Origin: Lineus longissimus
Lineage: Eukaryota > Nemertea > Pilidiophora > Heteronemertea > Lineidae
Reading direction: 5' to 3'
Assembly: GCF_910592395.1 (NCBI RefSeq)
Contig: NC_088309.1
Span: 15,752,599-15,816,598 of the forward strand
DNA: 64,000 nucleotides
A program made the position numbers and the translations under genes. Every line of letters starts with the position of its first letter. The stretch's first letter is position 1. Below are positions 3,912-38,284 of this stretch, piece after piece. The notes beneath the pieces were generated by a model that was given only the letters and a program-made list of their open reading frames with translations, had not been told where the DNA came from and ran no database searches.

Positions 3912-4541
3912 CTATTTCTCTACAAGGGGGCTTGCGAACAGCATCCGTATGGGATGCCTACTAGCGTACATGTTAATTATTTCCCCATAATCCAGTGGGA
4001 TATCCCTGTGTACGAAGAGAAGGACAGGGGCGTTGAATCTATCCTCACCCATCGTCGACCGGTAGGTATTTTTGACAAATCTCAGGGCTGAATTTGTGCG
4101 CTCTACACTAGCACTTGTTGCTGAAAATGTCAGAATTATACGGAATATTATCACTATGTTCGGAAATAGTTTCTCAACGCATTTGGCTTTGAGGGTTGGG
4201 AGGGTTTCTGATGGGGTAGTCGGCAGTTGGGCATCGTCAGAAGACCAGTAACGTCTCCAAAGCCAGAGTTCCTGTTTGAAGTTGCTACGGCAGGGCAGGT
4301 CATCTTCACAGCAGGAGCCGATGGTGTCCTCTTTTTCTGCATTTAGTTTAGCGAGATTGGTAGGTATTAGAAGCAGGGCCTTTATCGCATCATTTGATCT
4401 CCCACAAAATCTGTCATTCAGTTGGGAAATCAGGCGGTCGATGAATGGCAGGAAGATGCAGCGGCGATAATACTCCTCGGGGTTCTCAGCCTCAACATTT
4501 GCACGAAGCGTTTGGCGTCCGACAATACATAGTAAGGCCAG
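3912..4541 (-). pseudogene. hAT transposase, C-terminal third
   Basis: Encodes the hAT C-terminal dimerisation domain: TFSATSASVERTNSALRF, a variant of the hAT SxERxFS block, preceded by EYYRRCIFLPFIDRLISQL, which is characteristic of the P52rIPK/ZMYM-like hAT branch. The frame stays open upstream through the poly-G tract to 4592, but bases above 4541 belong to element A, so the real transposase sequence stops at 4541. It is the continuation of the gene at 16345-18284. With element A and one CAG removed, the reading frame is continuous across the junction. Ends at a normal stop. Confidence 0.85.
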
Positions 4542-5299
4542 TAGTCCTGGCTCTGGGGGGGGGGGGGGGGGGGGGGGGGTTCTTGTGTACATCTCTCTTC
4601 TACAGCAAAACTTTGGATTTTCCGGTTCTATATGTTGTCACCCTTGGAAAAAATATGGGTAACACTCCCAGATCAAGTACGTTTTTTCTGCACAGCCCAG
4701 TACGTGATTATGACATGAGAGCAATTGGCCAAAATAGCAAAATTCAGTTCTCATGGAATAATTCAAGAGGAGGCAACCTTAGATTCAAATGTAACATTTA
4801 TTTATCATGTTTAGACATAACTAACACATTTTTAGCATGGCTCAATACTTTAAATTGTCTTTTTTAGAAAGAAAAAAAACATAATTAAGGTTTTTTTCTC
4901 AAAAAATGACTTTCAGTTTGAAAGGCGCTCAAATTCCGATCACCTCTCATACACCCAATTCTGTAGATAAAGCAACCAAATTTGGTCAAAAGTTTCCTCA
5001 TGAAGTCCTTTGATAATTTTATGCATCATATCTGTGATTCAGGATATTCTATAGTGACAGCGGGGTCAAATGTCAACAAAGGTTACCCCTACCCCCAAAA
5101 AACGGTATAAACCAAAATTGGTTGAATTGGTCTAACTTGAAAAGTAAGTGTGATATTAGATTGATTTTGGTGTCAATGTATTGGTTTTTGATAGCACGCT
5201 GTTCTTTGGAGCCATAATCAACCCCTTTTGAGTTGACATAATTTGTATAATTTCAAAATGGGTGCTGAACAACTATGGCAATGATGAAGATGACTAAAT
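4542..5299 (+). repeat. Left terminal inverted repeat of element A
   Basis: Reverse complement of 15606-16344, with a long G-run (about 4555-4580) that is expanded relative to the right copy. Similarity ends sharply at GACTAAAT. The repeat contains the same short ATG-bearing stretch that starts the gene in the right copy. Confidence 0.92.
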
Positions 5300-5420
5300 T
5301 TAGCTCACAATTCAGCTTCAGCCAAACTATTAATATAGCTCAATGATTAATCCTCATTAAATTCATTACATGTCCATAAACCCAATATAACTGTCATAAC
5401 ACCACCTTTTACAACCTGCG

Positions 5421-5689
5421 TGTTCGGCCTATTGCAGGTTTATCATATGTAGTCCACGTGGTCCAGAGTATAGTCCATGCAAGACATGCAGAGAGATGTT
5501 ACAACGACGATATACTTATGCTAACTAACTTTATTCATCACAGGCTTTACAGGTAGAAAAGTCCGAAAAGGGGAAGTAAACACGATTGGTCAAGAAAGTA
5601 CCGTAAGGAGTCAATCCAAATATGGCCTGACAGGAGGCGGAGCTTATATGCTCAGTAATTAAGTGTATGATGGAAGGTGCGATGGCACA
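5421..5689 (-). repeat. BEL/Pao 3' LTR
   Basis: 269-bp direct repeat of 11887-12155 starting TGTTCGG and ending GGCACA. The ~2% difference between LTRs points to a fairly recent insertion. The 575 bases between the LTR and the pol stop are non-coding 3' sequence. Confidence 0.95.
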
Positions 5690-6264
5690 TCCTCCCCAGG
5701 GCAGGAAAATGTGTCTGGCATTGAAACCAAAATGACTTGTACGCTATCAAAGGGACCAATCCCTTGTAAAAACAAGCTGTCAATGTAGCCACCTTTACTT
5801 TAAAGTCCTAGAGTAAACAATCATAAACTAGAAAGATTACACCGTATTTATATCAAGATCAATTAACTTGAATTCTAAAGTGTCCTGTATTCAAACCGGA
5901 TCTCTAAATTGCTCTGTGGAGATTGCGAAAACTACAATGTATATATGAGACTTGCAGACTTGTACTAATTCGAAGTACAATGTATATGTAGTCAAATTTC
6001 TAAAGTCCTATTTCAATCAGCTAAAGACACAGAATATAGTGTGCATGAGACAGTTCGAATGACAATAATGAGTTTGTAGTATGATCTACTATAGAGTCCT
6101 ATATAACGCACTAATATGAATTCTTGTGACGCGTTCACACGGATATTCATTACATTGTTATTACATGTATATTGTCCTATGGATCAGTTATCTCGTTGTG
6201 CCACACCCTAAATAACATGTCCTGAACTGCCACTTCGTCACTCGTACTAAATAACACGTATCAT

Positions 6265-8877
6265 TTAATCGTCTTTGCCATTAAGTACGTTTGCCCATTG
6301 CATTATCTTATTTCTGGCGTTCTTGCTAGCATTGCGTGTTGGTGGCCTGTTGTTTACAGGTGCCTGTTGCATTGTGTTTTGCTGGGCTTCATTGTGTTTC
6401 TCGTGAACCTGGGCAGCGATTGGCGCAGTTTCAGTGGCAGTGACTTCAAGAGGATAAAGGCGCGCTATTGGGCGGTTAGTCACTCCCGATGATGTTTTTA
6501 TTTGTGCGGCACGTGCGATACCATCTTGACCATAGATCAGGCGTTCAATTTTAGCGATCTTCCAATTGACCCTTTTGGTTTCATCACTGTGGACTAGGAC
6601 GATTTCACCAACTTTTACGCGGGTTTCGCGATGACCGCGCTTCGATCGAATATGTCTCTCCCTTAACGAAGGGATATATTCCGATGACCATTGTTGCCAA
6701 AAGGGATCAATCAGTACCGCCAGTCGTTTAGCGCGTTTGTTAAGATTATCTCCAAAGTTCGGATCAGCAAGTTCATCCAAGTCGGTAGCTTTGTACGGAA
6801 GTCCTGTTATCTGTCTCCCGTGGAGAAGGTGTGCTGGCGTCAGAGGGGCAGTGATGTCCATGTCACCAATGTACGTGAGGGGTCGGTCATTTAGTATGCC
6901 TTCTACTTGGGTGACAAAGGTTGTCAGTTCATCCAGTGTTACTCGCGCTCTTCTTAGAGTTTTAATGATGGCCATCTTCGTCATTCCAATCATGCGCTCA
7001 AAGAACCCTCCCCACCACGGCGCGCGTTTGGGGTTGAAGGTCCAAGTGCAGCGGTGGTCAGCCATGTGGGCCTGGATGTCCGGTGATTGCATTAGCTGCT
7101 TAATCTCATTGGCGGCGGCGATGAAAGTTGTGCCATTGTCAGAAATCATTTGTGAAGGAGTGGAGCGGCGGGCGCAGAATCGTCGAAAGGCATTCAGAAA
7201 GGTCTGTGACGTCATATCGGGAACAACTTCAAGGTGCACCGCTCTTGTTATGGCACAGGTGAATAGGGCAATGTAGACTTTTGCCTCGGGACCACCCTCC
7301 TTGGGTCTGACATTTAGTGCACCGGTAAAGTCGCAACCGGAAACAGTGAAAGGGGGTGCTTGCTGGATGCGGCTGGCCTGAAGGGGCGGAGTTTCTGGTT
7401 TGCTATAGGGCTTTCCCATAATCAGCTTGCAGGTGACGCATCGTCGGAGTTGTGAGTTGACGGCTTCCCGGATTCTCGGAATCCAAAATCGCTGGCGGAG
7501 CCATGCCACGGTAGATCGCATTCCCGAGTGTAATTGGGCGGCATGGGCCCTGCCTACGAGAAGGTCGGTGAATAGATGCTTCCGTGGTACCAGATACGGG
7601 AACTTGGTGTCGAGGTTGTTTCTGGCATTGTTGAGTCGGCCATCTAGTCGAATCAGGCCTGACTCATCGAGGTATAGGCGAAGTTGATTGACAAGTGTTT
7701 TGCTGCGACCAGCTAGGGGTCCTGTGGCGGTCCTTCCTTTGAGGATTTCTATCTCATTGTGATAGCAGTCCGTTTGTATGGCTTTAATCCACAGTGTCTC
7801 AGCGGCAGAAGGTTCCTGTGCAGTGGCTTGGATCAGAGTCTTGAGATTGGTCTTATCCTTTGTTATCCAGACTTTGGCGATTTTCTGGACAAGTGCGGTG
7901 ATTCTGAGAAGCTTGCGGTACGAACTGAAACCTGTGACGTCAATGACCTTGGCGATACCCGGGTGTTGCAGCGGTGTTGTAGCGGGGTGATGGGTCTGGT
8001 CTCTGACATCTGGGGCGTGGTCGCTAGTGTCGTCTCGTACCTGGTCTGGTACGTCATCAGTAGTGGCGGCTTGCTGTAAGAGTACATTATGAAGAAGTTG
8101 TGTTGGCGTGGGTGGGTACATCCCGGTACTCAACCAGCTGGGGCCTGTCCACCACAGTGGGGAGTCGCGCAGTTCCTGTGCAGTGATGCCTCGAGTTAGG
8201 AGGTCAGCGGGGTTATCTTTTGATTGCACACAGCGAAATTCACCTGGGAATTTCCTGAGCTCATTCACATGATTCTGAACAAACACAGGAAGTTTCTTTT
8301 CGCTTGTAATCCAATGTAGGACGATCTGAGAATCGATCCAAATGACTTGTTTTTTCATTGGAATTAACCCTTGGAGTGCTTCTAGCGTATACTTGGCTAG
8401 TCTGTAGCCGGTGAGTGCTGCAATTAATTCCATGCGAGGAATGGTAGTGGCTTTTAGCGGTTTGACTCTGGTTTTGGCTATGAGGAGAGATGCCTGGGTT
8501 CCACTCTTTAGGTAGATGGCGCATCCGTAGTCTGCTGGGGATGCATCGCTAAATGCATGTAGTTCACAATTTTGCGGGTCAATGTTGTCCAATATTTTCC
8601 GAGGGACAGTGATGTTCATGGCTTCTTCCAATTCGATGGTGATTTTGCGCCACCTTTCAGACAGTTCTGTTGTAAGGGGTTCGTCCCAGTGTAGTCCGTG
8701 TTGCCATAGTTCTTGCAGGAAGGCCTTGGCTTTAATGTGCGTGGGGGCAATATATCCGAGTGGGTCGAAAATGCTAGAGCTGTGACTTATGACTGCGCCT
8801 TTGGTCAGAAGAATATCTGGGGATGGAGCAGCTTTCTTTGCATATGATAGTTGGTCACTACCGGTGTCCCATTTCAT
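6265..8877 (-). pseudogene. BEL/Pao RNase H, integrase and DUF5641 (intact block)
   Basis: The largest open block in the window, 870 codons, but only the C-terminal part of Pol. In order: RT thumb (FDPLGYIAPTHIKAKAFLQ), RNase H with HAFSDASPADYG, ELIAAL and WIDSQIVLHWI, a zinc-binding integrase N-domain (HSGMRSTVAWLRQRF...CVTC), the integrase core with FTGAL, ISDNGTTF and WWGGFFERMIG (D, D, E positions), and a C-terminal DUF5641-like segment (VKVGEIVLVHSDE). Ends at a normal stop. Because upstream frames are broken, it is classed as part of a dead gene. Confidence 0.9.
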
Positions 8878-9998
8878 GCCTAGGACACTGACGTTCGTCT
8901 TTGCTCGTTGATGTCATCAGCCTGAGCTTGGTCGCGTACTGTAGCATCATTTGAGGTCCATGCGCGGAGTTTGAAGCCACAGTCACTCATTATGGCGTTT
9001 GCGGTGTTGTAATATTCCATGGCGGTGTCTGTAGTGGCGACACCTGTCACCACGTTGTCAAACGTATATGTTGTTCTTGACGTCTGCTGCGATACGGGAT
9101 GAGGTTGCGGCGTCAAGGTGGGTGTGCAGTACGGTTTGCAGAATAAACGGCGATGACACTGTTCCAAATAAGACCGCTTCAAACTGGTACGTGTGGAAAT
9201 CACTCTCGGGGTCACTGGGATCACTGAGCCATAAAAATTTCGTAAAGCATCTGTCTTCTTCGTTGAGCCTGATGTTAAGAAACGCTTTCTCAATATCACT
9301 CGAAAGGCCTATGGGGTGCATTCTAAAACGGAGAAGTATGGCGTTGAGCTCGTTGAGGCAGTTTGGACTGGGGTCCAGGCAATCATTCAGGCTTGGGTGA
9401 TCATTTGACTTCTTGCAGGACGCGTCATATACTACCCGGATTGGGGTGGTGGCAGATGAATCTTTAAGAACCGCATGGTGGGGCAAGTAGTGGCCAATGT
9501 TGATGTTGTCGTCTGCTACTCTGCCGATGAAATGTCGTTGGAGTTGAGTGGTAATAATATCTTGATACTTACTCAGGAGGTCAGGCGATAATTTCCGTAC
9601 CATCGATCTTGTCCTTGCTTTGGCGACGTGGTAGTTCGTGGGTAAAATTGGGTGGTTGTCCAACCATGGTAGTCTGGCTACGTATTTTCCGTTGTCGTCT
9701 CGTTCAAGGCAGGTGTCGCGGTAATTGAGTAGAAAGTCGCTTTCTTTTTCTTCAGTGTCGTCTTTAATCCCTATGGTTTCCAAGTCCCAGTAAGATTGTG
9801 CTATTTTGTCTTCAAGGGTGTGGCTTGCTAGGACGTTTAGAACGGTCGTCAGGAGTGCGGGCGTGTATTCATCGCGTTGACCTTCGATATTGGCGGGAGT
9901 CGGGCCTGATAGGCGATATCCGAATTTCGATGAGACCGCTACTGGTCCGAGGGTGTTTTCTGCGGGACGGAAGATTTTGTCTCCAACTATTGACCAAT
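8878..9998 (-). pseudogene. BEL/Pao reverse transcriptase, frameshifted
   Basis: Reverse transcriptase of the BEL type (annotated Peptidase_A17/RVT in databases). Open block 9783-9058 contains LPHHAVLKDSSATTPIRVVYDASCK, DIEKAFLNI and the downstream core. A one-base change near 9059 disrupts the frame exactly at the catalytic YVDN-like motif. Coding continues in another frame to 8880 and returns to the original frame at 8877. The two shifts compensate each other, but the enzyme cannot be made as encoded. Confidence 0.85.
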
Positions 9999-11472
9999 AG
10001 TAGTCCGCACCAGGATGTCAATTTCCATAAAGTCCCCGGAGCTGGTTTCCGCAAACTTGAGGTTCTTTAGATGTGGTAAGGCGAAGATTGCTTGGGGGCA
10101 GGTGCTAATCGGTGCTGAAATCTTCGGGACGATGAGCATTTTCATGGGAACGTTTTCTACTCGAGAAGCGGTTTTTTCGATTTGGACGATGACGTTATCC
10201 AACGCACGTACGGCTTTGGCGTTAGCCCCAAAGGGTGCTATTTTTATCATCTCTCGAGATTGCGGTTTGAGTTCGAGATTGCTGGCGCATTTTGCGGTGA
10301 TGAAGGAGCGCTGGCTCCCTTCATCTAGAATGATGTTGACCTTAGTTGAGCGGGTCGGAGATTTTGCGGTTGCGACGGCGGATTTCAGAATTGCGGGACC
10401 CAACATAAGGGGTTTGGTGTTAACCAACTTATGGTGAACAGTTGTGGCGGTTTCAGCTTGTTCCCGTTCATTGTTGGGATTTGCGGTTGACCTAGGGTTT
10501 GAGGATCTATTTGAGGCCTGTCGGGATGAATCGCACAGTGCGGTATGATGGCGTCGCCTACATTTGTGGCGTTTGGTTGTTGAATTGCAAAACTTTGCCC
10601 GATGGTTGCCAAGGCAGTTAAAACACAAATCGGCCCTTTTTACGATTTCCCATCTGCGCTTTGGATCAGTAACACTTTTACAATGGACGCTGGGATGATT
10701 ATCAGTAGAACAAAACACACATTTCGCGCGTTTTTTCTCACTCATACTAGTATTCCTGGTGGTGTTAACACTAAATGCGGCAGTGGGTGTGGCATATCCA
10801 ATGTTTGAATCATTACACAGATCCAGAATGGCGTCTCCTTGAATTGAAATGTCAATTTCTCTCTTGATCGCCTCGCGGACATCTTGTAGTTGCCAGTCTC
10901 TCGCTCCATGGTCACGGGTGATGAGTTGTCTCAGTCGGCGTGGAAGTTTCTCCATGATGAGGGGCACTAGTAGGTCGCCGTAGGAACTCTCCTCCATTCC
11001 TATAGCGCGTAGGCCACGGATGTGACTTTCAAGTTGATCATAAAAGCTCTTCACGTTGTCAATTTCATCGCTTGGTTTGGGAAGGTCCCAGAGGGCTTTC
11101 ATGGGGGCTGCTTTTAGTTTGTGGTTCTGTCCATATCGTTCTCTCAAAAGTTCAATCGCACTCGCATAGTTAGCGTCGGTTAGTTGCAATCCTGCGATTG
11201 CCAAAGACGCTTCCCCCTGTAACTGGGCGCGTAAATATTGGAATTTCTGTACGTTTCCGAGTGCGTTGTTGTTATGGATGGCTGCCGTAAATCCGTCGAA
11301 AAATGTCGTCCACTCTAAGATGTTAGCGGAGAAGGTGGAAAGTTGGAGTTTAGGAAGATGAACGTTTTTTGTTACCGGTACCGTTGGCGTTGTGCTCGTG
11401 TTTGTGGGAGCTGGAGTCCGGGCTAGAGTCGCGGGTTTGGGCTGCTTAGGGCTCGCTAACCTGTCGTTTTTT
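9987..11472 (-). pseudogene. BEL/Pao gag (DUF1759-like), zinc knuckles and protease (DUF1758-like)
   Basis: Main Gag and protease frame; open upstream of its first ATG (11204) to about 11472. The order is a DUF1759-like Gag core (FYDQLESHIRGLRAIG), cysteine/histidine knuckles (CVFCSTDNHPSVHC, CFNCLGNHRAKFC) and an aspartic-protease-like DUF1758 segment with ILDEGSQRSFIT. It stops at 9987 because of a frameshift near 10000, after which the RT frame continues. Cytoplasmic capsid and polyprotein-processing roles are inferred from the family. Confidence 0.85.
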
Positions 11473-11806
11473 TCCTCAGAATGATGTGTTTCTCTTCCAC
11501 GTTTGACGTATATTCCTCGGCTTCCGTCACCGCGTGGTCTACGGTGTCGGTTGGGGTGGCCTTGATGATATCTTTATCAAGAGCCACAATCTCTGCCAGT
11601 TTTGTAGGGACCAGTGCAAGTTTCGCAAATACTTGATCCAGTTTGGTGACGTCTAGCGTTGTGTCTACTGCTGCTTCGGCGTTAAGTTCCTTCACCACGT
11701 CCTCCATCTTGTTGATGAGTCTGGTCATCGTCGCTCGTTTCGAGCCTCTCTCGTGAACCATGCGTTTAAGCTTGTCTGCTGCTACTTCCTCTGGTGTTGG
11801 AGCCAT
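11456..11806 (-). pseudogene. BEL/Pao gag, N-terminal segment
   Basis: 116 codons starting MAPTPEEVAADKLKR, a charged helical segment typical of the start of BEL Gag, ending in an early stop. Coding continues in the -1 frame immediately downstream. The shift falls at a run of seven A (coding strand, ~11469-11475). It is more likely an indel than programmed frameshifting, because the codon phase does not give a canonical slippery heptamer. Confidence 0.75.
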
Positions 11807-11886
11807 ATTTAAGCGGGATATCGAGTAAAACGTGAGGATAGATAGACCGAGTCCGTATTGAGAAAATCCTGGTCACATGCACCAAA

Positions 11887-12155
11887 TGTTCGGCCTATTG
11901 CGGGTTTATCATATATAGTCCACGTGGTCCAGAGTATAGTCCATGCAAGACATGCAGAGAGATGTTACAACGACGATATACTTATGCTAACTAACTTTAT
12001 TCATCACAGGCTTTACAGGTAGAAAAGTCCGAAAAGGGGAAGTAAACACAATTGGTCAAGAAAGTACCGTAAGGAGTCAATCCAAATATGGCCTGACAGG
12101 AGGCGGAGCTTATATGCTCAGTAATTAAGTGTATGATGGAAGGTGCGTCGGCACA
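11887..12155 (-). repeat. BEL/Pao 5' LTR
   Basis: Partner LTR, expected to hold the promoter for the minus-strand transcript. Followed on the element's left by the primer-binding region and a short leader before gag at 11806. Confidence 0.95.
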
Positions 12156-12180
12156 CTGCGCAACTACAATGTACTCTTTA

Positions 12181-15100
12181 TTAAGCGACAGAATTTTTGC
12201 AGTCATTAGGGGAGGCCTTTTTGCAATGACAAAAATTTACGCATCTGGCTGTGGCGGTCCTACAGGGACATGTTGACCTGGCACACTTAGCGCATGAACA
12301 GACAACTGTCCAATGTGATTCTAGAGTTTTCCATGTTGTCTCAGGTATGAGCTGTTCCTTATCGTGCGTATAACCATAATCCTCTGGCTTCAGTGCGATC
12401 ACCTGTTCAGAATCTTGATGAATCTTCAAAGCATGCATGATAGTGTAGGCATTGAAAAAGCTGCGCTTGATATGTGGCAGGAGACCTTGGCTGGTAGGTG
12501 GCAGGTTGTGATGAAAACTCCCTTTGACATGATGGAAGATCTCTGCACGCAAGTTTGAAAATGTCTTTCCATTGCTTTTTGGTTTCAGCACTTTGACCAA
12601 GTAGGATTCTGCATTCCTAATCGACGGCTTGGAGAGGGTCGGCACCCCCCCCCCCCCCCAAAGTGCATCAATAACTTTTCTGGCTTGGCCTTCAAGGCGG
12701 CCTTCTTGGTCCCAACTTTGCTAGTGATATCACATCCTGTAAGACTGTGGACTGCAGGAAGAACAGCACAGAGTTGACATCCGATGCGCTCGAACAAGGT
12801 ATGAAGGGGCACATACATATGCTATCTCCAACTCCAGCTCGTACCCACAGCTCCTCTAGGTTATGTTGGAGAAAGACAGGCATGTGGTGGAGCAAGGCAA
12901 CAACTACATCGGTATCATTGGAGATGACAACACATACTTTGTGTCCTTCCTTGAGCGCGTCCAAAACATGAAGGAGTATGCGAAGGTCCGCTTCTTCAAA
13001 TGTTGATTGAAGATGTGCCAGTGCGCTCTCATCTCCGTTGTGCATTTTAATACATTTCCAATCCTCTTCCTCTCTACTCACCTGGCCAAGTACAATTGGA
13101 TACTGACCGGTATTTGCAATATTTGAACGAACATGGCTGTAGATCAGTTTTTCAAGAAGAAGTTTGTTGTTGTTGGAAGGCCAGAAAGTGTTCATGTCCT
13201 TGGGTAGTGGTGTTGATGGCTCTATTGAACTATATTCGATGGGTACAGTGTCACTTCGCCTTTTCCTCACGCTGTCCTTCACTGATGGGTCATCAGAATA
13301 CATGTCAAACACATAGTCAGTTCGACCAAATTGACGATACTTGGCCGAAAATGACATGAAATCAGACAGAAGGTCATTGAACTTGGAAAGTTTGGTAACA
13401 TTAACCTTTCGGATTGTGGCCATGATGTCAACTACAAATGACGCATCTTTCCGATGACTGTATGTGATTTCCTCCGCTTTTAGGTGCGTTTCCAACTCCT
13501 TCAGTAGCTGGCTCTTTGCTGGTTTTGTCATCATTCCTGCATCATCGAACAGCACTGCGGAGGGAACAACATCGTACTTTAGAAGATCATCTGTTGTAAG
13601 GCCACGCTCCCGAGCAATTTCAATGTTTTTCTCAGCGATGTTCATCTCCTTCACTGTCGTCTTGGTAGTCTTCTGTGGCTTCTTTCGGAGAGTTTTCATC
13701 GTCTTCAAGTTTGCACGGTGAATGGTACTGCTTATTCGTTCAATCTTGGTGACAAACCTTTCCTTTCTGAATTTCAGGTATTTGTCTTTTCCTTTTGATA
13801 AGGCATTGAGCATGTCAATTTTTATATCTTCGGACATGACCTCTTTTGTCACAAAGTTTTGTAATGTTTGGGAAGCGTCTACAGACAGAGGGGACCCCTT
13901 CTCTTCAATGAATCTCATCATCTCCTGAATATTTCCTTCTTTGCGGTTGGTTGTGGCCTGCGATGATTCGTGGTGACTGAAAGTCTCGTGTGTCCTATCA
14001 ATCACATCACTGTGTTGCCGATGTAGGTTCTTCACTGCCATCACTTCATGGTATATCAGGTCCCACTGGGCGACGTACTGTTTTTGCTTTGCATGCCCAA
14101 TGACCCCATCGCTGCACTTTGATGAAAGATTTATGCTTTGCCCTAATTTCTGGTCTCCTCCAACAGCAGTGAATCGGCCGGGTATCTCTTTGATTGAAAA
14201 ATGCCTTTGACAAACTGTTCATAAACTGATGGTGCAGTTTCAGGCAGACATCGCATGTCTTCAAGGTACAGAGAACCCCATCGCAAGTAGTTTGTCGAAT
14301 CGAATGCCGCAAATAGGTTCAATGCACGCTGGACGGCGTCAAGATGCAGTTCCCAAATTCCTTCACGGTCAGCTCTCAGTAGATCACGGACAATATCCAT
14401 CATTTGCAGGTACTGAGCCCAGAACTTGAAGTTTTCATTGGCATCAGACCGTGTTTGAATGAATCTGTTCAACTCTTCGACCAACGCCTTTGATGCATCA
14501 GCAAACTGAACCATATACTTCTGACTACCTGTGATGCATTTCTCCTTGACACTAGACTTGAGGTTTGTCAGGATGGCAAGCTCATGTGTATATGGGTCGA
14601 TGCCTGTCTCGGAGAAGAATGCTTTGTACAGAAGACGTTCAAAGGCTTCAGCAAGGAGCTGCATACCCTCAAGATAGCGGCTGTAGTGACCTCCATGTCG
14701 AACGGAATTCTCGATTACAGTGGGGCCAAAAACACCAGCCTGCAACCATGTGATGTCTGCGCCACTTCCATCCAGGAATTTGCCGATACATTTCAAAACA
14801 GTTTTCACTAAGTGAAACGTTCCCAGGCAAGGAACCAGGGTCCTGAATTCCTCTGGTCTCAGCAGTTGTATATCACGGACGATACAATACACACCTTCAT
14901 CACAATACATTGGTATCTCATTTTGAGTCAGCTGAGAACCAATGTCCAGAAAGTTCTTCATAGCGGTATAAACTGTCGAGTACTCTGTAACTGGATGCGG
15001 CAGAACAGGCACAAATGCAAGATTCTTTAATGGGATGGCCTCTTCTGTCCAAACAGAGTTACTAGCGCTCCATGATGGCATTGTTTGTGACACAGGGTAG

Positions 15101-15630
15101 ATGGACACTTCATCCTGAATGACGTTCAAGCGGGCGAGGGTCCAAGAAACATCCTTCAGTTTTGCTGCATCGGCTTGGGACGAAGTGTAAGGAAGGTCGG
15201 CCACTTTGTAAGTTGCTGGAATGTCCGCACGGCGTGCAGGCTTGTGAAAGTCGGACAGCACCTGGCATTTCAGTACTTTACTGAATGACTGTGGACCATG
15301 TGTAACCTGCGTGTCAGAAATCTTTGGTTTACATGTCGACGACAGGGGTTTGTCTTGGAACAGAACAGTCACAGTGTCATGTTCAGATACATTGGCTCCC
15401 TCATGGTCCCAGTTGTCAATTGCACTTGAGGTGAATTGCCCAGGATCAAAGTGTGACGGCAGTGAAACGCGATCGTTGTTGTGCTGTGCTGTAAACGTGG
15501 CAAGGTCATGTTGGTACCTACGCAGCTCCGGGTAGCTGATGGCTAGTCCTGCATGGTTTAGAACTGTAGTTACAATTTTGCCACCACGCCCAAGACCATG
15601 AACAGATTTAGTCATCTTCATCATTGCCAT
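12181..15630 (-). pseudogene. Element A protein: PIN/XPG-like nuclease with CXC-like tail
   Basis: A gene of about 1150 codons in four open blocks: 15630-14143, a frame running ~14180-12692, 12818-12585 and 12645-12181. The blocks are joined by frameshifts near 14180, near 12815 and at a C-run at 12647-12660. The N-terminal block has IDNWDHEGANVSEHDTV, shared in diverged form with element B. The middle is helical and rich in Lys and Glu. Near 12700-13000 comes an acidic, PIN/FEN1-XPG-like segment: EADLRILLHVLDA, SNDTDVVVALL and HSLTGCDITSKVG. The last block has a cysteine-rich CSCAKCARSTCPC...CHC cluster resembling tesmin/TSO1 CXC domains. It is probably the element's transposase or an accessory nuclease; the exact role is inferred. 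Frameshifts make this copy inactive as read. Confidence 0.75.
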
Positions 15631-16344
15631 AGTTGTTCAGCACCCATTTTGAAATTATACAAATTATGTCAACTCAAAAGGGGTTGATTATGGCTCCAAA
15701 GAACAGCGTGCTATCAAAAACCAATACATTGACACCAAAATCAATCTAATATCACACTTATTTTTCAAGTTAGACCAATTCAACCAATTTTGGTTTATAC
15801 CGTTTTTTGGGGGTAGGGGTAACCTTTGTTGACATTTGACCCCGCTGTCACTATAGAATATCCTGAATCACAGATATGATGCATAAAATTATCAAAGGAC
15901 TTCATAAGGAAACTTTTGACCAAATTTGGTTGCTTTATCTACAGAATTGGGTGTATGAGAGGTGATCGGAATTTGAGCGCCTTTCAAACTGAAAGTCATT
16001 TTTTGAGAAAAAAACCTTAATTATGTTTTTTTTTTCTAAAAAAGACAATTTAAAGTATTGAGCCATGCTAAAAATGTGTTAGTTATATCTAAACATGATA
16101 AATAAATGTTACATTTGAATCTAAGGTTGCCTCCTCTTGAATTATTCCATGAGAACTGAATTTTGCTATTTTGGCCAATTGCCCTCATGTCATAATCACG
16201 TACTGGGCTGTGCAGAAAAAAACGTACTTGATCTGGGAGTGTTACCCATATTTTTCCCAAGGGTGACAACATATAGAACCGGAAAATCCAAAGTTTTGCT
16301 GTAGAAGAGAGATGTACACAGGAACCCCCCCAGAGCCTATACTA
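15606..16344 (-). repeat. Right terminal inverted repeat of element A
   Basis: Mirror of 4542-5299, with only scattered mismatches over ~740 bases. The first codons of the element A gene (ATG at 15628-15630) lie inside this repeat, so the promoter and start are duplicated at both ends of the element. Confidence 0.92.
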
Positions 16345-18284
16345 CAGGGGTAAGCCACCTATTTTCGCCATCTTGGAGCACGAGGCGAACAGCCTTGCAA
16401 ACTCATGTTCAGAGTCATCTCTGATGGCCATCATCTCATCTTTTACAAGACTGACTTTGTCGTAGGCTGTGATGATATCCAAAGCCGTCCCTTGGAGCTG
16501 TCTTGACAGGCCTTTTGTGAAACCAAAAATGTAGTGGCAAGTTGTGAACGGCACAATGAACTTTGCGTTTCGCAGCTGGCCTTGTAGGCCATTAGCCTCT
16601 GTCACCGTCTTCGGATCCCATCTAGCGTCATTGTTAGTCACAATATTGTCCAGGCAGTCGAACAACGGTTCATACAATTACTCTAAATCATCAAATGAGG
16701 TATGGCGTTCAACCCATCGCGTCTCGCATAGTGGCTTAAGTTTCATCTTCATCAACTGCTTATTGCGACCAGGGTCTTCAGCGCAATAATTTTCAATTGA
16801 TCTTTCTAGTCTCCGTTGTCTCTTTGCCGAGAACTTGAAAAACAATCCCACAGACTGCATTGAGCACACCATGTTGTGTACCTCAGGCACTTTAGAAGCT
16901 TTAGATAAGGCCAAGTTCAGTTCATGAGAGGCGCAATGGAAATACGTAGCTTTCGAAAGCCCCCTTTTTGTTCGGAATTGGTTTGCCGCTCCTTTCTGTT
17001 TACCAGCCATATTACCTGCCCCATCGTAGGTTTGTGATCTGCACTTCATGGGGTCGAGGCGTACTTCAGTGATACATTCTAATATCAGGTCGGCAATTGT
17101 CTCTCCAATTATGTTTTCACATTTAACGTACTGAATGAGCCGCTCAACTGGTTCGTCCTCTTTCAAGTATCTCACAATAACCCCCAATTGCTCCCAGTTA
17201 CTACAATCGGTTACTTCATCGGCGACGAGTCCGTAGAATGGGCCTGAGGCTTGGGCATTCACCTCATCAGTTATTTTGCCTTGGATGAAATCAATGATGC
17301 ACTGGAGGAGATCATTTTGAGTCGTCTTGGAAATGTATGTCGCATTTTTTTGGGCTGTGTCCAAATGTTGCTGCATGTCTATATCAGTACGGCTGACCAA
17401 ACGAATCAGCGACTTGAAGTTCCCTATGTTGGTGTTGTCTTCATCACCTGGGTTGCCGTCGTCTATTTGACCTCTCAACGCTATCCCCTATCGCCCACAA
17501 AACTCCACACACCAAATGATTGATTCCAAAAATCTTCTGTTCCATTCAACAGCTTCATCGCCAGCATCAGAAAGAATGTAATCAACACGAGATCCTTGTG
17601 TTTGCATCGTATTGAGAAACGATCGCATTCGAGCACTAGAGTCTCTGTGGTACTCTAACACAGAATGTTTACAGAGGTCCGATTTTGCATCCTTCCAGTT
17701 GCGATAGGGAGTAGTTACCAGTAAATTAGCTCGACGGCCTTGATGAGCCGCTACCGGGAAGAGCACGCAACACAAACAGAATAAGCCATCTTTGTCTTTG
17801 GAGTAGGCCAGGAAATCATACAGTTCGAACCAATCAGGACAGCAGCGGCGTTTCTTTATTCCGGACCTTTCACTTGGAATTCAAAGGCTTTACCGGGTAA
17901 CCTATTCTTGATGAAATAGGCCTTCTGTTCACAATCGATGATCACGTTCTTTGTGATGGCCTCGACTCCTTCAGTTATGTCAAGCATCAATGACTCTGGT
18001 AATGAATCTGATGAGTCTGATTCTGAACTGGTATCTTCTATAGGCCAACCAGTAGTCTCTTCGCTGCCAACGCTGGATGCCGTTGAAGGAACCGCAATAG
18101 ACGAGTCTTCCCTTTCGTTGTCATGGTTGTTGATATCTTGGTCTAAGCTGGGTGCAGAGGAACTCGAGGATGTTGCTTCAGGGTCGTGTCCACCATAAGA
18201 CGTTGCTGCAGGTTGTGGTCGTCCAACATGTCCAACAGCTGCAGAAGTGGAGTCACTAACATCACCATGACTGTCGCTCTCTCT
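16345..18284 (-). pseudogene. hAT transposase, N-terminal two thirds (DUF4371-like)
   Basis: Minus-strand hAT transposase of the P52rIPK/ZMYM-like branch. A putative splice acceptor (TTTCAG, ~18285-18290) opens a Ser/Asp-rich acidic region. A zinc-finger-like CCPDWFELYDFLAYSKDKDG segment follows (~17810-17860), then the DUF4371/RNase-H-like core with LVADEVTDCSN and YDGAGNMAGK (16678-17478). The gene is broken by in-frame TAG at 17485-17487, in-frame TAA near 16678-16680, and a probable frameshift near 17850. It ends where element A was inserted. Both in-frame stops fall where glutamine would be expected (one C-to-T change each). Confidence 0.85.
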
Positions 18285-21802: not shown

Positions 21803-24010
21803 CTAAGCATGTGTCAACACCTTCTCTTGAAAGCTTTGCCCATTATTGGCTGTGTCAACCGTCGCAATGTCTTTATGGTAAAACCGTCCGAATGTACTCG
21901 CTCGTGACCAATCAGCTTTTTTCATTATCTGTTCTACCGACATTCCTTGGCAACTAGCCTTAGAAGTTGCTGCAGCCCTTGTTGAATGAGCCTTATATTT
22001 CAAAGTATCTACACCTCCTTTTAGCTCACCTCTTAGCAGAGGTGAGCTTATCCCATACCGTGGCGTCCGTCGTCCGTCGTCGTCGTCGTCGTCGTCGTCG
22101 TCCGTCGTTGTCCGTCGTCCGTTAGCAGGGCACGTTTCGTAACTGTTAGAGCTATTGAGTTGAAACTTGGTACACATGTACCCTTATGTAATGACACCTT
22201 GGAGACCAAGTTTCGGTTCGATTCGTTTTATGGTTTGGCCACCAGGGGGCCAAACGTTAAAAGTGAAAATATGCAATATCTCCCTTAATAGTAGTCAGGA
22301 AATTTTGAAAAAAATATGGTAGGTACTTCTAGCAAAGGTGCATCATATATCCTCCGGGTTTTTGATTTGCCCTCCTTTTCAAGGTCACAGAGGTCAAAGT
22401 TTGCTGATTCACTGAACAGTAGCATGTTTCCTATCTATTTTAGCTAGAAGGTTTTAAACCAGTGTGGACATGTATCTTGGGATTCTCTATTCCACCCCTA
22501 AAATTTCGGCCGTTCGGACATCAAATATGGCCGCCAGGCAGCCATCTTGAAAAATAAACACAGTACTATTACTCCGAAACTAATGATCGGATTGCAACCA
22601 AATTTGATCTGGATGTATATCTATGTACTCTCTACTAAATCCTTGATTTTTTATCAAATGTGATAGCCAATATCGATGCCAGGCGGGCATCTTGAAAAAT
22701 TCTTAGTTTGGCCACCCGGGGGCCAAATTTAATGTCCAAAGTTAAAATGTTTGATAGCTCGTTTAATAGTGGTCTGATTTTCATAACATTTTTATGGTAG
22801 GTACTCCTAGCAAGGATACATTTCATAAATGTGAGTTTTTGATTTGACCTACTTCTCAAGGTCACAGAGGTCAAAATTTTCCTATGGCACTGCCATTTTA
22901 CAATGACGGCACGTTTTGTCACTGCTTTAGCTACAGATCCCTTACTTGGTACGAATGTACCCCTATACTCTTAGACTAAACTGCAGTCTTTTTCTGATTC
23001 TCAGTTTGGCCAGCAGGGCCCCAAATGTTAATAGTGGACTCTCCCCTAAGGGTGCCTTGAAATGCTGCTAAGTGGGATGTCATAGTCTAAGCCTAGGCAA
23101 ATGCAGGATTAATTAATTTCATTGTAAAACATTACTTCATTTCTTTCTTACATTTAAAACTATGCTAATGCTTCATCCATCTTCCCTTCACAAGAGGTGA
23201 GCACAATGGCCCTGGCCATTTTTCTTTTTCCATCAAGCCCAGCAACCACCTAGCAATCGTGCAAGGGGCCACTGGTTTGTGTGGTTTCTTTAACCCCAAA
23301 AACAAGAAAGTGACCTGTTCCTGGCTTACTCTCCATGGCTTAGTTCTAATCTGATACTCTTTCAAGCACCTCATGACATCTAGCTGAGGGTCAAGGTCAT
23401 ACGGGGCAAAAGACAGTTTTAACAACGACTTCCCAGGCCGTGAGGTTTTTGTGACCGAATCAATCTGGAACACTACTTTGCCATTTTCTTTTGTTTGATT
23501 TGAGCTTTTGATTTTACTCAACTCAGACCCCCTGCACACACTCGTGAGGGACATCAGCATGGCAAGTTTAGACGCTAACGACTTCATCTCCATGCTGTTA
23601 TTGTCGCCTAGCGCTCTGATCATTGTGAGAACCACCTCAACATCCCAAGTATCACTGTACCTGGGTACCGGTGGCCTTTTGTTAAATACCCCCAACATCA
23701 GCCTAGTGATGTCAGGGTGCTGGCCCAGAGGCTTGCCCTCTACTGGTGGGTGCCTGGACGATATTGCTGAGCGATATCCGTTGATCGTGCTATAGGCCTT
23801 GCCCAGTTCAAACTCTGCGGTGAGGAAGTTCCCTACATCCCCCACACTGGCCTGAAATGGATCAATATGTTCCCCAACACACCAGCCAGTCCACCTTTTC
23901 CAGGCTGAGTTGTAAGCGACCTCAGTTCCTGGTCGGCAGCCTCCTCTGTGGAGTGTGGCAGCTGCTTCAGAAAAGCATTGTGGTCTGTTGGGTTTCCTGA
24001 TATTCTCCAT
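21803..24010 (-). pseudogene. DIRS tyrosine recombinase, split by Helentron-like repeat
   Basis: Tyrosine recombinase that inserts the circular DIRS DNA. The upstream block (up to ~23221) has an N-terminal SAM-like region (TEVAYNSAWKRWTGWCVGEH) and the start of the catalytic domain (MLMSLTSVCRGSELSKIK carries the first Arg). The distal block (21803-22018) has HSTRAAATSKA, which is the H-x-x-R box, and FYHKDI with the likely catalytic Tyr. The 1.2 kb repeat at 22019-23220 lies between them, and the frame is continuous if it is removed. A separate frameshift lies near 23915. Confidence 0.85.
22019..23220 (+). mobile_element. Helentron-like non-autonomous repeat, copy 1 (diverged)
   Basis: Begins TTTTAGCTCACCTC with a hairpin (GCTCACCTC / GAGGTGAGC), then a GTC/CGT microsatellite. 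Ends with GAGGTGAGCAC and a palindrome AATGGCC-CT-GGCCATT. Interrupts the DIRS recombinase gene without an obvious target duplication beyond T-run ambiguity. More diverged than the other three copies and carries two AGGTCA-type direct repeats. Confidence 0.8.
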
Positions 24011-24135
24011 GCTGCCAATCGCATTGTTTGATTTTCTATCATTGGGTGTATTTCCCCTTGGTGATTGGTGAGCAGGTCGTTTGTCATTGGCATGAGGATG
24101 GGTTCCTTCACCAGCAGGGCCAGCAATGCCGGGTA

Positions 24136-25934
24136 TCATTGTTGGCCTGGCCATACTGGCGCCACCAGTGTAATTTCTGCCTTGTCCTGAACCACTTTGG
24201 CCAGAATCCGACCTATTAGGCAAAAAGGTGGGAATGCATACCCCTTGATCCCGGACCACTTCATCGCGAAGGCGTCGAATCTTATCGCCCCCGGGTCCGG
24301 CTTCCAGCTCACATATTGTGATTTCTGGGTATTGTGCCTGCTGGCAAACAGGTCCACTTGTTGTTCCCCCAGTATTTTTTCCACCTGAGAGAAAATCTGT
24401 GCATTGAGATGCCAATCGCTCGAGTCGCTGAACACCCTGGATGCCTTGTCGGCCTCCACATTGTCTTTCCCTGGTAGGTGCTCTGCTGTGAGCCAAATGC
24501 CGCGTTCCATGCAGCACTGCCACACCTCCTTTGTCACTGCCAGCAGTTCTCGGGACCTTGTCCCCCCATTTTGTTTATCTGGGCTACCGCTGTGGTGTTG
24601 TCTATCCTGAAATGGATGTGGCATTTTTACCACCTCTCTTACCAGAGCTTTGATTGCCATCAGGACAGCTTTCAACTCTAAGACGTTTATATGTGCCCCA
24701 CTTTCTTGGTGGGTCCACATTCCCTGTGCCATTATTTCTGTTCCATTCCGAACTGCCCCCCAACCTTTTTTCGACGCATCCGTTGTTCGCGTTGGGTGAG
24801 ATTACAGCTTTCCCATTCACATTCAGGAGATTCTGACACCACTATAATAGGTCTGCTCTGCATTCTGGTGTCAAGGTCACTAGCGCTCCGTAAGTTTGGT
24901 TTGACTGTTTTAGGCCTGCCCGCTTCAGCATCTGCAGACTGCGGTAATGCAACGGCGCCGGGAGGATGGCACTGACTGTTGCCGTCAGTTTGCCGATTAG
25001 CACAGCCAGCTCCCTCACTGACGTTTGTTTCTGGCCCAGCATAATGCTGCACGAGTCCCTGATCTGTTCTATTTTCTCCTGAGGGAGGAGGAGTTGCATC
25101 TTGATTGTGTCTACAATGAAGCCCAGATAGGAATTCAATACCTGGCATTGCTCCAGGATTGACCTGGTCCAATTTATTTTCCAACCCAGGATTTGAAGGA
25201 GCCACAGAGCTGAGGTTGTCTGGCTTTTCAAATATCCGGGTTCTTGATGCAGTATGATCAGATCGTCTAAAAAAAATCATAAGTCGGTAGCCCAGTCGTC
25301 TCAGTAGGCCTATTGGGATTTTCAAGAGTCTGGTAAACAGACGAGGGACTGGGGCTAGCCCGAAGGGACACACTAGGTATTTGTACATCTTGTCCTTCCA
25401 TTGAAAACATAAGTATCTCTGTGTTTCTGTCGCTACCGGTACACAGAAGTATGCGACCTTCAGGTCTATTTTGACCATGAAGTCGTCCGGTTGAATCAGG
25501 TTTTTTAGCATATGTATGGTCTCCATTTTGAAATGTTGATATTGTATGTGATTGTTCAGACTCTTCAGATTGAATACCGGTCTGAATGAGCCGTCCTTTT
25601 TCTTCCGAAGGAAGAGATGGCTCACATACTCCACTTCGTGGGGGTCGGTCACCTCCACTATTGCCCGTTTTTTTAGCATTTCCTGGACTTCGGTGTCTAT
25701 CTGGCGGGTCTCCCCTTCCGAGAACTTGGGGCAAAAGCATGATGTTCTCCTCGGAGGTTTCTGCACCCACTCTATTTGGTAACCTGTCACTGCCTCCAAT
25801 ATCAGAGGGTCGCTGGTTATTTGTTGGCAGTTTTTTATCCTGCCCCCCACTGGACCTTCTGTCGAAGGTGGGTTTTGCAAGCCTAGTTTTTTCAGTTCCC
25901 CTGCTACATCTTGTAGTCGTATCATTGAGATCAA
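24136..25934 (-). pseudogene. DIRS reverse transcriptase and RNase H, frameshifted
   Basis: RT block 25934-25276 has FLRKKKDGSFRPVFNLKSLN, KIDLKVAYFCVPVA and KYLVCPFGLAPVPRLFTRLLK, the DIRS/Gypsy-like RT signature. A run of eight A on the plus strand (25269-25276) shifts the frame at the catalytic YxDD-type motif. Coding continues through the RT thumb and connection (25231-24842) and RNase H (24732-24136, with NVLELKAVLMAI and GKDNVEADKASR). Another in-frame TGA near 24135 lies where Trp is expected. Confidence 0.85.
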
Positions 25935-26218
25935 ATATCTAAAAAGAAGTATTACTTTGATAACTGTGGAAGCTGTGATGAATAAAAACTGGAATTTCTT
26001 GTCTGGACATGCTGGAAGGCTTATTGAATTAAGAGGAACAAAAAAAAGGGGACTTGTGAACTTCAGAAGAAAGGAATGTGATTACGATTCACATAACATG
26101 AAAAACCGATAACAAGTTTCATCATTCTCTAGCAACAGGTCCTCATCAACACGATCCACTCCTCACCTGTCCGAGACTCTGTTGAAATTCATTGTCACGG
26201 TATTTCACGCTCACTTTG

Positions 26219-27718
26219 TTAGGGACGTTGTGTACACACGCAGGTGATTGGTTTATACAGTACATGTTTCCATGCCTTTACATCTGGATGGCAAGTTACC
26301 TCAAGCCAGGGCACTGTAACTTTTTCAGTTCCCCTGCTACATCTTGTAGTCGTATCATTTCGAATGACATATTGACCTTCTCGGGCATTGGAGACAGTGG
26401 CAAGCTTTGGGGATCGCATTTCGATTGATACATACCTTTTTCCACCACGCTTCGTGTTCGGTCGCTTCTTGTCGTAAGCGGTTGCTGTTCTGGCCGAGCC
26501 TGGCTTTGGCCCTTTATTGTATGTGGCTTTGTAGCCCCCGTCGTTGCTACTCCTGCGCGACGAAGGCCCCTTACGAAAGGGTCGATTGCCCCCTAGCCCT
26601 CTCTTAATTTCTTGAACTTTTTTCGTTCCTTTTGCTTTCTTATGCAAGGCTGCATAGAATTTTGATCCGAACAACTTCTTTCTGTTTTTTGCTAGAAGCT
26701 CACCATTTTCTTTGATTACTGCCCCCGCTTTTTTGTAACTACGCAGGAAGCGAGACATATAGTTGAAACGTCGACTGTAAGTCGACCACACCCAGGACTG
26801 GCCCAGCAGCAAAATGGCCTTCTCCACTTGCTCTAGCAGAGCACCAGCGTCCAACTTGTCGTTGTCTACGGCCCGTTCCATGGTCCGCCACAACTTCATC
26901 AGCGGCCATGTTGTTTGCAACAGTCTGACTTGCGACTTCATCATTGCGTCATCTTGCTTTTTGGCCAGATCCCTCAGCTGAGCTGGAAGCATGTCCCCTT
27001 CCAACTTAGGAACAGTGAAAATTTCATTTTCTGGGATTGGGTTTCCTTCCATCACTTTAGTTTTGATAGTCTCATCTGGAACAAACTGTGTAAAATGTTT
27101 TTGCACATATCTTTCTTGAGACTTCGATAGCTTCCACGCTCTCTTTTTTTCCTCACTACAGGGATCAAACCGGGCCCTCTTGGGGTGCCTACTGTCCTCA
27201 GAGCTGGAACGCGATCGGCGTTTATGGCGCCGGTTATGTTTTCGTTTGTGACGTCGATGTCTTTATGCCGCTGAATCATCAGCGCTGCTGCTGTCAGTCT
27301 CATGGTCAGAGCTGCTATAATTATTGCCACTACTGGACAGCGAGTGCGAGGACTCACATTTCCGCCTTCGGCTTCGGTGTCCGGAGTCTGACCCAGAAGA
27401 ATGATCTGAACCGCGCCCACTAAATACCTGAAGATCCTCTTCAGAATCCAAACCCCTCACCGATGGTGAGCTGTCGCGTTCATGATCAGTGCCCTGTGAT
27501 CCGGGCTCATGCCTCGAACATATCGAGGACTCGGCCATGTTGGAGGGAGCCGAAATGGCTTGTCCCTCATCAGACCGTTTTTGGGGTATCTTGTACCCCT
27601 CTGACCACCCCTTTTTAGGGCTGTAGCCACCCAGGGGGTCTGAATTAGCCTTTTGGGCCGATTCATTCGCTTTCCTACCTTTAATTCGCTCGGATGTCTC
27701 TTGATCCATGCTGAGCAA
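26219..27718 (-). pseudogene. DIRS gag-like protein, one in-frame stop
   Basis: Two open blocks in the same frame (27718-27263 and 27106-26219, with open sequence between them) separated by one TAA at 27263-27265. The N-terminal part is Ser/Asp-rich with a basic RHRRHKRK-type stretch. The C-terminal part has a helical core (QLRDLAKKQDDAMMKSQ, WSTYSRRFNYMSRFLRSY) and a basic Arg/Lys/Gly tail, as in DIRS Gag proteins. The assignment rests on position and composition rather than a strong motif. Confidence 0.7.
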
Positions 27719-29210: not shown

Positions 29211-29694
29211 AAAAAGCTGACACGCATCTTGGTCTTTTGCCAAAAGAAGAAAAGGTTGAACTTTTTGTGAAAAGGAACTTTATCTGCCGTCACACTGGCT
29301 TCGCTTTTTCCAAATTGGCCTATACACAGGGGACATCCGTACTCCATCAACTAGGCTTACCTATGGAATGGAATGACCTGATTCAATTCATACGCAAATT
29401 TATAGGGGCTTCAGGTAGTGATAATTTAGTTCTCAGACTTATATCAGATGGTTGCATCAGATGGTTCCACCATCTACCTTAGCTAGATCTGCTACCTGTC
29501 TTCCCCAGGGACATCCTCGCAAACAATTAGTCGAGCGTTACCAATTATACTGGAATTTGTTAATGGATTATGCGTCCACAGTGTAACAGTGGAGGGTACT
29601 AGTAAAAATAGGAATTTTGTGCAATTTATTTTGTTTACTGATAGAAGCACACTGCAAAAACAGCCAAATTAAACTAGGGGTCGTTCATGATGTA
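29211..29694. other. Gap without a recognised gene
   Basis: Short open frames on both strands with no family resemblance that I can name. The 81-codon plus-strand frame at 29237-29482 has protein-like composition but no support from context. Confidence 0.4.
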
Positions 29695-30660
29695 CAGTCC
29701 TTCAAAAAAGTAAATGGACACACAAAAATCAAATTTTCTTGAAAACGGCTGGTGATAAATCGATTCGGTTTGCTGCATTTGATAGGACATTTAGTTGTGC
29801 ATCATGGTATCTACCACATAAAAATTAGCCATTTTATCTAATACCGACTTTTATTGATTTACAAAAGGCCCCAAAATCAACTTTTTCGTTTCCGATTTTT
29901 TTCGTACTTTTTCTTGATAGGATGAATCACCATGATGAAAAACCCACGTCCCCATCAAGGTGATGAAAATATCTTGTGTTAATTGGTGGGAAAACAGCAT
30001 TTTATGTCAAAATTTTGCACCTTGTTTATTGACTTTGGAATTACTTTGGAGAAGTCGACCATAGCCAATTATGTCAGTTTCAACATGCAGCCCGAGTGTT
30101 AATTCCTTATTGGCTGATGTTTTGAATAGGGGTGGAAATGTTGTTAACATTGATGTATTGTAAACGCGAGGGTAAAGTAATATTGGTGAACCCATTGTCC
30201 AGCTGCCAAATCCAGGCCTGGGAGAGATATTCATAGGCATATTAAACAAGGCCATTGAAATGGTGACATGATTCCGGTTGTCTGGGCCAGGTGAATAATA
30301 TCAAGGGGGCATCTCCGCAGTAGAAGACCGGGTAACAAAACCCTTTTGCACAAATGGGTTAATAAGTTGCAGATTCAAGTGAAAACTGTGGAATTTCTTA
30401 GATATTCACTCATAACTCAACAGAAGCTTCCAGTCAATATAAAATTTGCCCCCAAAAAATGCGTGATAAAAAAGTTGATTTTGGGACCTTTCATAAATCG
30501 AAAAAATTGACTTATAGGTAAAATAGCAAATTTCCAAGTGGTAGATATCATGATGCACAACTAAATGCCCTATCAAATGCAGCAAACCGCATCGATTTAT
30601 CACCAGCCGTTTTCAAGAAAATTTGATTTTTGTGTGTCCATTTACTTTTTTGAAGGACTG
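29695..30660. mobile_element. Tc1/mariner-type MITE
   Basis: 966-bp element with ~190-bp inverted ends (29695-29890 mirrors 30473-30660), starting CAGTCCTTCAAAAAAGT and ending with its complement, flanked by TA (29693-29694, 30661-30662). No transposase. CAGT ends and the TA target are Tc1/mariner hallmarks. Confidence 0.9.
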
Positions 30661-30979
30661 TACGTACGCACCTCGGGGGAGGAGGGGTCATGTTCGCTGA
30701 TGCATGCATGTACATTTTGCCTGTACATTAGGGGGAGGGGATCCCAAAATCGGGGTTTAAGTGAGTACGTACTTTATAAACGCACCCCTGGCTGCAGAAT
30801 TTTCCTGCTTCACAGTCTTTTAGCATGGGGAGTGGAGGTTGGAGTGGGGAAATATGAATGTAGTCCAAAATGTGTTCTGAAGAAGTTGAAATAAGAATTC
30901 ATATTTAAGAAAAATATATTTATTTCAAAATGACTATCCTGTCCAGCAGGCGATTGGAATAAGCATTGAAATAAGAAAG
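30661..30979. other. Gap without a recognised gene
   Basis: No coding or structural signal beyond the neighbouring MITE and minisatellite. Confidence 0.4.
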
Positions 30980-32031: not shown

Positions 32032-32512
32032 TAGTCCATGGGCTGAGTAGGCCCACCTTGCAACCCCCCCTAAAACTGATGAAAATGCATGCAAGTTGTA
32101 GTATTTGATCTATATTTTCAAAATGTAGGGACTCAATGAAAATGTAGGGACTCAATACCACTCTTGGGCGGTTTTTGTGGGCGTGGCTCCTTTTTTTTCT
32201 GCGGCCAGTCTTGGGGTAGGGGAAATCTAAATTGACTTTCCTCTTGACTGGTTTATCATAGGAAAGTGTATGACCCATCAAAATGTTTGTCTTGAGCCAC
32301 TCTAGACTTCAAGATAATCAATATGCAAATTAACTCAATATGTAGGTCAACAGAGGTCAAAAGGTCACGAAATTTAGGGAATGCCTAAAATCTGGAAGCC
32401 GGGCCTGCAAATGTTCCCCGAGGTTCTGAAATTTGGAACAATTGAGCTAGGAGCCTATAATATCATTAACTGACATCCCTTCACTAATGTTCAATTATTT
32501 TCAAAACTGATG
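32032..32512 (+). repeat. Left terminal inverted repeat of element B
   Basis: Mirror of 36252-36752 with scattered mismatches. Contains three AGGTCA half-sites at 32344-32349, 32354-32359 and 32362-32367. Confidence 0.9.
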
Positions 32513-32949
32513 CCGCTGTGATAACGCAAATGGATCGAATTTCGAAAATGTAAAACAAAATGGTGATTTTAAATCTGTGGTAAAGGAATAGGCGATTATG
32601 AGTTATGTATGCCACAACAAAATCAACAATTAGGTACCATTCAATGAATGCTTTATTTTTCATTTCAAACAATCAAAATTTTAAATGATTTACCTAAATT
32701 ATCTCTTGAATTATGCAAATTAGGCAAATACTAAAGGTCAAAATGGTCAAGTCATGGAAGTAGCATGTACTAGGAGTGGTGTGTGTACATGCCATTTACA
32801 TATTTGTACACCATAATCAAGGAGTCAAATGGACATTTTCACAGATACATCCAGATACGGGAATACCAACTGAAGATGCAATATGCAGGATTAACCCCCT
32901 GATGCCGGTGACAAACCATGGCCAATGCAAATGATGCATATTACAGATA

Positions 32950-37973: not shown

Positions 37974-38284
37974 CTGAAATGATAAGAAGAATCTATTGAA
38001 GTTATAGAATGATGTCAATTTTACATGAAGCATCAACTTGATTCAGGGGGATATCTAGGAAATATGAAAAGGAAGTGGAACACTAGAACTGAGATTTCAC
38101 AGGCAGCATCTGTGAATTCATGACTCCAGGGTTGTTTTGAGGGCGATTTCGTTAGAGTTAGTCTTGAGTACGGGAACACGTTTTTTTTAGCAGGAGGAAA
38201 GCGAGAACATTTTGCGCCGTCGTATTCCAATGTGACTTGTTAGTGGTGAAATCTGCTTTTACTTTTGCAAATTAACATATTCGT

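Follow-up and report, generated by a model that had tools for sequence, protein, structure and literature searches.

Structure of the E1 locus

We analyzed a 64,000-nucleotide stretch of the Lineus longissimus genome (assembly GCF_910592395.1, contig NC_088309.1, positions 15,752,599 to 15,816,598), hereafter the window, in whose coordinates all positions below are given. At 4542–16344 lies a DNA transposon with long terminal inverted repeats (TIRs), designated E1, whose gene combines a putative transposase core, a FEN1/XPG-like segment, and a CXC-like cysteine cluster; a second, diverged element, E2, shares the window. The E1 locus comprises the following features.

3912–4541, minus strand: hAT transposase gene, 3' part, the target of E1
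4539–4541, strand not assigned: CAG target duplication, left copy
4542–5299, plus strand: left TIR of E1, starting with TAGT and containing a 25-G tract
5421–12155, minus strand: nested BEL/Pao long terminal repeat (LTR) retrotransposon, not part of E1 (LTRs 5421–5689 and 11887–12155, duplication CTGCG)
12181–12720, minus strand: E1 gene, C-terminal frame with a CXC-like cluster of nine cysteines
12663–12797, minus strand: E1 gene, short stretch in a different frame (LTGCDITSKVG)
12692–14218, minus strand: E1 gene, middle frame with the end of the core and the FEN1/XPG-like segment (FVVD, YVFD, EADLR, NDTDV)
14143–15636, minus strand: E1 gene, N half with the putative transposase core (DNWD at residue 73, YCDEG at 243, GTFH at 271, counted from 0)
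15606–16344, minus strand: right TIR of E1
16345–16347, strand not assigned: CAG target duplication, right copy
16345–17880, minus strand: hAT transposase gene, 5' part, the target of E1

The inverted ends of E1 are approximately 740 bp long, with 719 of 728 aligned columns identical, and the element runs from TAGT to ACTA with CAG on either flank as a 3-bp duplication. A preliminary description of this stretch had likewise reported a long-TIR DNA transposon with inverted ends of about 740 bp, TAGT...ACTA termini, and a CAG duplication. When the window was scanned for TAGT and ACTA pairs lying 200–15,000 bp apart with the same flanking 3-mers, 162 pairs were returned, among which E2 (score 48.5) and E1 (27) alone stood out, the next best scoring 13.

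Both flanks of E1 are hAT sequence, with Pfam matches to DUF4371 on the right and to the hAT dimerisation domain on the left. The preliminary description had counted the continuity of the hAT frame after removal of E1 as part of the proof of the boundaries. The joined frame is indeed open over the junction, but it contains three stops elsewhere, and because the duplication is 3 bp long the frame holds at the junction whether one or two CAGs are kept. The nested BEL/Pao element has 269-bp LTRs (264 of 269 positions identical) and encodes Pao peptidase, integrase, and gag-type domains; without it, E1 measures 5063 bp. Since this element is nested in E1 and E1 in the hAT gene, the order of insertion was hAT, then E1, then BEL. 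The same description mentioned neither the insert nor the dead state of the copy.

The second element is a diverged Academ-like transposon. Its gene looks internally deleted, the gap falling after the beginning of the core and ahead of the nuclease part.

32032–36752, minus strand: E2, bounded by TIRs roughly 550 bp long (87%), with ends TAGTCCATGGGCTGA and duplication TTT
34880–35872, minus strand: E2 gene, N-terminal cysteine/histidine modules
33813–34763, minus strand: E2 gene, beginning of the core (DFDNFD), with an apparent internal deletion after it
32891–33892, minus strand: E2 gene, nuclease-like segment (EETDTR, SPDTY, RCDTTSAFKGIG)

Copies of the family across the genome

We searched the window's own genome (391 Mb) with the N half of the E1 protein (181 initial candidates; 86 scored). 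The N half matched 87 places, many with long open frames that reach 1639 amino acids and recur at equal lengths, for example 1596 amino acids at four places. Twenty ten-kb places, labeled with L numbers, were fetched for analysis of their ends, and 11 of them were bounded by terminal repeats and flanking duplications, of 3 bp in nine and 4 bp in two. An end scan that put pairs with matching flanking 3-mers first found identical 3-mers at eight of the 20 (L018 ATA, L022 CAG, L024 CTA, L025 CTT, L032 AAA, L033 ATA, L036 TTA, and L037 CCA); for L024, L025, L032, and L033, the ends from the scan coincided with the limits of inverted repeats found by BLAST, which is blind to the flanks. The duplication of L035 is the 4-bp CCAG. 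L030 and L031, which are 99.9% identical over 6.2 kb and have short, imperfect terminal repeats, are flanked by TAAA (4 bp) and CAA (3 bp), respectively.

Adding E1 and E2 brings the bounded elements to 13, 11 with 3-bp and two with 4-bp duplications, and the two lengths mix even inside near-identical pairs (L035 CCAG and L036 TTA; L030 TAAA and L031 CAA). Bounded members are 3.9–7.5 kb long, their ends start with TAG and mostly TAGT, and their inverted repeats often span several hundred base pairs. Targets are mixed (CAG, TTT, CTA, CTT, AAA, ATA, TTA, CCA, and CAA). Undamaged members carry one gene of up to approximately 1600 codons.

The family gene is a mobile-element gene, given the ends and duplications at E1, E2, and 11 of the 20 fetched places and the near-identical copies at different targets: L032 and L033 are 99.8% identical over their main stretch and L035 and L036 99.9%, and the members of each pair occupy different sites. 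According to the preliminary description, proteins of this kind are usually listed as uncharacterised host genes in marine invertebrates; the family ties them to a transposon whose ends are proven and whose copies include recent ones. Host nuclease and CXC genes that were captured by a transposon, or that merely lie between unrelated inverted repeats, would account for the nine fetched places at which no full end pair with a duplication was found within 10 kb; among these nine, the inverted repeat of L023 lacks clean ends, and one end each is visible in L020, L021, and L027 when they are compared with relatives. We regard such an origin as scarcely credible: ends and duplications surround the gene in the bounded elements, and in L032 and L033 the longest open reading frame starting with methionine encodes 1589 amino acids and the next 109. 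As an account of the entire family, this explanation fails.

The preliminary description had likewise called the gene mobile and had named two findings that would speak against it, namely single-copy host homologs without TIRs and a separate DDE transposase that mobilises the element. The relatives collected here are multi-copy and have terminal repeats, and where a second transposase was looked for, in L032 and L033, no other methionine-started frame exceeded 109 amino acids.

Four pieces of the E1 and E2 proteins found no relatives in a viral contig collection, and the middle piece of E1, the only query used there, found none in a plasmid collection. Residue-pattern matches (0, 2, and 3 stretches in viral contigs and 4 in genome contigs) were all judged to be chance on reading.

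Putative transposase core and terminal modules

In the members that were read out, the protein consists, in order, of N-terminal cysteine/histidine modules, the core, the nuclease-like part, and a C-terminal cysteine cluster. Alignment of the core showed D63, D218, H247, and E463 (numbered along the L037 piece) to be invariant in all nine sequences, with the histidine 29 residues past the second D. The two aspartates are 155–170 residues apart in five proteins, and the second D and the E are separated by 245–259 residues in the eight measured.

Pfam scans matched DUF6589 (PF20231) in six of 13 proteins at E ≤0.1 (L024, L025, L027, L028, L030, and L037) and in five of the nine core pieces, the L024 match being the sole one above the Pfam cut-off (34.5 versus 27 bits). 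The match covers the second D and the E in L024, the second D in L025 and L027, and the E in L037, while those in L028 and L030 fall between these two residues. The remaining seven proteins (L032, L034, L026, L019, L035, L018, and E1) had no DUF6589 match in Pfam. Pfam gives no function for this domain, and a search of the available literature found no paper on it.

The preliminary description had seen no classic DDE signature in the gene, which is doubtful in view of the invariant D, D, and E in the N half and its partial match to DUF6589. A transposon that lacks a DDE transposase and whose DNA is cut by the FEN1/PIN-like part alone would fit two observations, that no RNase H-like match to the core was detectable among PDB sequences and that single sequences gave no usable fold model. 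The invariance of D, D, and E in nine of nine cores, with an invariant histidine 29 residues after the second D, makes this alternative highly improbable. We tentatively propose, as a possibility rather than a probability, that DUF6589 is part of the D-D-E catalytic core of transposases that also contain a complete FEN1-type nuclease. A single protein would then cut the two DNA strands with two unrelated active sites, and DUF6589 proteins elsewhere would be transposon-derived. A domain of unknown function would thereby become linked to transposition.

At the C-terminus, the tesmin/TSO1 CXC domain (Pfam TCR) was matched in two of the 13 proteins, L028 above the cut-off (26.6 versus 23.5 bits) and L026 below it (19.1 bits), and a profile of the whole family matched the CXC domain of LIN54 in the PDB at an E value of 0.0029. 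The cysteine cluster of E1 had no Pfam match and has a spacing of its own. PDB and NCBIfam searches with pieces of the E1 and E2 proteins returned nothing meaningful.

Nuclease-like part

Seven residues of the nuclease-like part (D28, D74, K83, D178, D201, D203, and D261) are invariant in 10 of 10 aligned sequences, among which two pairs are near-duplicates, and E175/E176 is absent only from L037. Their order resembles that of FEN1, XPG, and EXO1: D, D, then K and R, E/D, DxD, and GCD with a G-x-G stretch after it. A profile of this part searched against 177,635 PDB sequences gave five matches at E <10, headed by Exonuclease 1, which accounts for four of them (E 0.09–0.27). In the three alignments displayed, the pieces, individually weak, line up in sequence with the VFD..SK..ER and GCD motifs.

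Other tests of the link were not significant. Single pairwise comparisons with FEN1 failed; an hhalign comparison with human FEN1 covered the GCD region only and was outscored by two of 200 shuffles; in an hmmsearch run without filters, FEN1 lay outside the 12 best printed matches, all of which were shuffles (of 3,000). A FEN1 motif pattern written beforehand had no match in E1, and Pfam scans matched no XPG family. The family also differs from FEN1, XPG, and EXO1 in that overall similarity is below significance, the nuclease part sits in a transposase-sized protein, and L037 lacks the E pair. The nuclease part is nonetheless likely to be related to FEN1/XPG, mainly because of the conserved residue pattern. 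The XPG/FEN1-like segment and the CXC-like cluster that the preliminary description had assigned to the gene were both seen, the former with a likely rather than proven link.

State of the E1 gene

The E1 gene is split into at least four frame segments. Of the earlier claim of a single gene, one large gene is what intact relatives have, but the E1 copy itself is broken. The motifs EADLR, NDTDV, and TGCD named with that claim are all present, but TGCD lies in a different frame from the other two. Long G/C homopolymers occur within E1 at 4555–4579, in the TIR, and at approximately 12645–12660, where the reading frame of the gene breaks.

The nearest relative of E1 is L018, with 94% identity over 399 residues; at the site of the conserved core E, E1 has G and L018 has E. 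Because of the frame breaks and the glycine replacing the third conserved acid, E1 is an inactive copy and cannot be autonomous. It also appears to be without the N-terminal modules of its relatives. Decay alone need not explain this short N terminus, because the 940-amino-acid frame of L035 and L036 likewise begins inside the TIR.

Other features of the window

A dispersed repeat of approximately 1.15 kb occurs at 38281–39417, 52346–53499, and 60838–61984 (97–98% identical), with a truncated copy at 22017–22398; it contains a CGT microsatellite and about two tandem copies of a 301-bp unit. On the minus strand, frames at 23165–27262 resemble, as read by eye, a DIRS-type retrotransposon with a reverse transcriptase and possibly a tyrosine recombinase, and 57941–59943 holds an LTR-type retrotransposon in which Pfam matched reverse transcriptase and RNase H and one frame looks by eye like an integrase. 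An integrase-core protein at 41027–41881 on the plus strand (Pfam rva_4, E 1.4e-25) possibly belongs to another DNA transposon. An inverted-repeat element of approximately 970 bp with arms of about 195–210 bp lies at 29692–30663, and 21-bp tandem arrays of the TCTCGTTATTACGAGATCTTT type occur in opposite orientations at 40628–40958 and 56564–57042.

Proposed mechanism

We propose a division of labor within the protein. DNA, probably at the element ends, would be bound by the N-terminal modules and by the CXC domain at the C-terminus; the core, judging from the conservation of its D, D, and E, would serve as the transposase; and the FEN1/XPG-like part may cut or trim the second strand or a flap at the ends or at the target. 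Insertion duplicates 3 bp of the target, and in some cases 4. E1 itself is inactive through frame breaks and the acid-to-glycine replacement, and the BEL element entered it later. Intact members, in which a transposase-like core is joined to a FEN1-like nuclease, make a role of the nuclease in transposition testable.

Classification and comparison with known superfamilies

PIF/Harbinger and EnSpm/CACTA are 3-bp superfamilies with a TWA target and CACT ends, respectively, and each has its own transposase; Zator is also a 3-bp superfamily. PIF/Harbinger and EnSpm/CACTA were excluded by the TAG ends, the mixed targets, and the lack of any Pfam transposase family; no such family was matched on the E1 pieces or on the intact proteins scanned.

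Yuan and Wessler reportedly assigned a DDE domain to Academ, and an XPG nuclease is the defining trait of AcademX. Academ is listed as a DDD/E superfamily in PMC9587614, and bivalve Academ elements have a mean length of 5565 bp according to PMC10294476. PMC10045372 gives duplications of 3 or 4 bp for AcademX and 9 or 10 bp for AcademH and ties them to an encoded nuclease and helicase, respectively.

E1 is most probably a dead member of an AcademX-type family of cut-and-paste DNA transposons within the Academ superfamily, matched to AcademX by published description. This filing is made because the 3- or 4-bp duplications and the predicted encoded nuclease match that description; the mixing of 3 and 4 bp, found even inside near-identical pairs, is a close fit to AcademX. 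The preliminary description had left open an Academ branch or an undescribed group; the first is likely and the second unlikely, as AcademX is already described in PMC10045372. Since the likeness to Academ is one of description rather than of sequence, and since the Pfam scans gave no XPG family match, a separate, non-Academ superfamily that independently joined such a core to a CXC domain and a FEN1-like nuclease might be considered. We think this unlikely, as duplications of 3 or 4 bp with an encoded nuclease are reported for AcademX, and the size fits Academ.

If the assignment holds, AcademH belongs to the same superfamily as the family described here. AcademH encodes a helicase and makes 9–10-bp duplications, whereas here Pfam scans of the family proteins matched no helicase family and the duplications are 3–4 bp. 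AcademX is similar in its 3- or 4-bp duplications, its encoded nuclease (here a predicted, FEN1-like one), its DDD/E core (here putative), and its size near 5.6 kb. If the filing holds, the family is a new member of the known AcademX kind.

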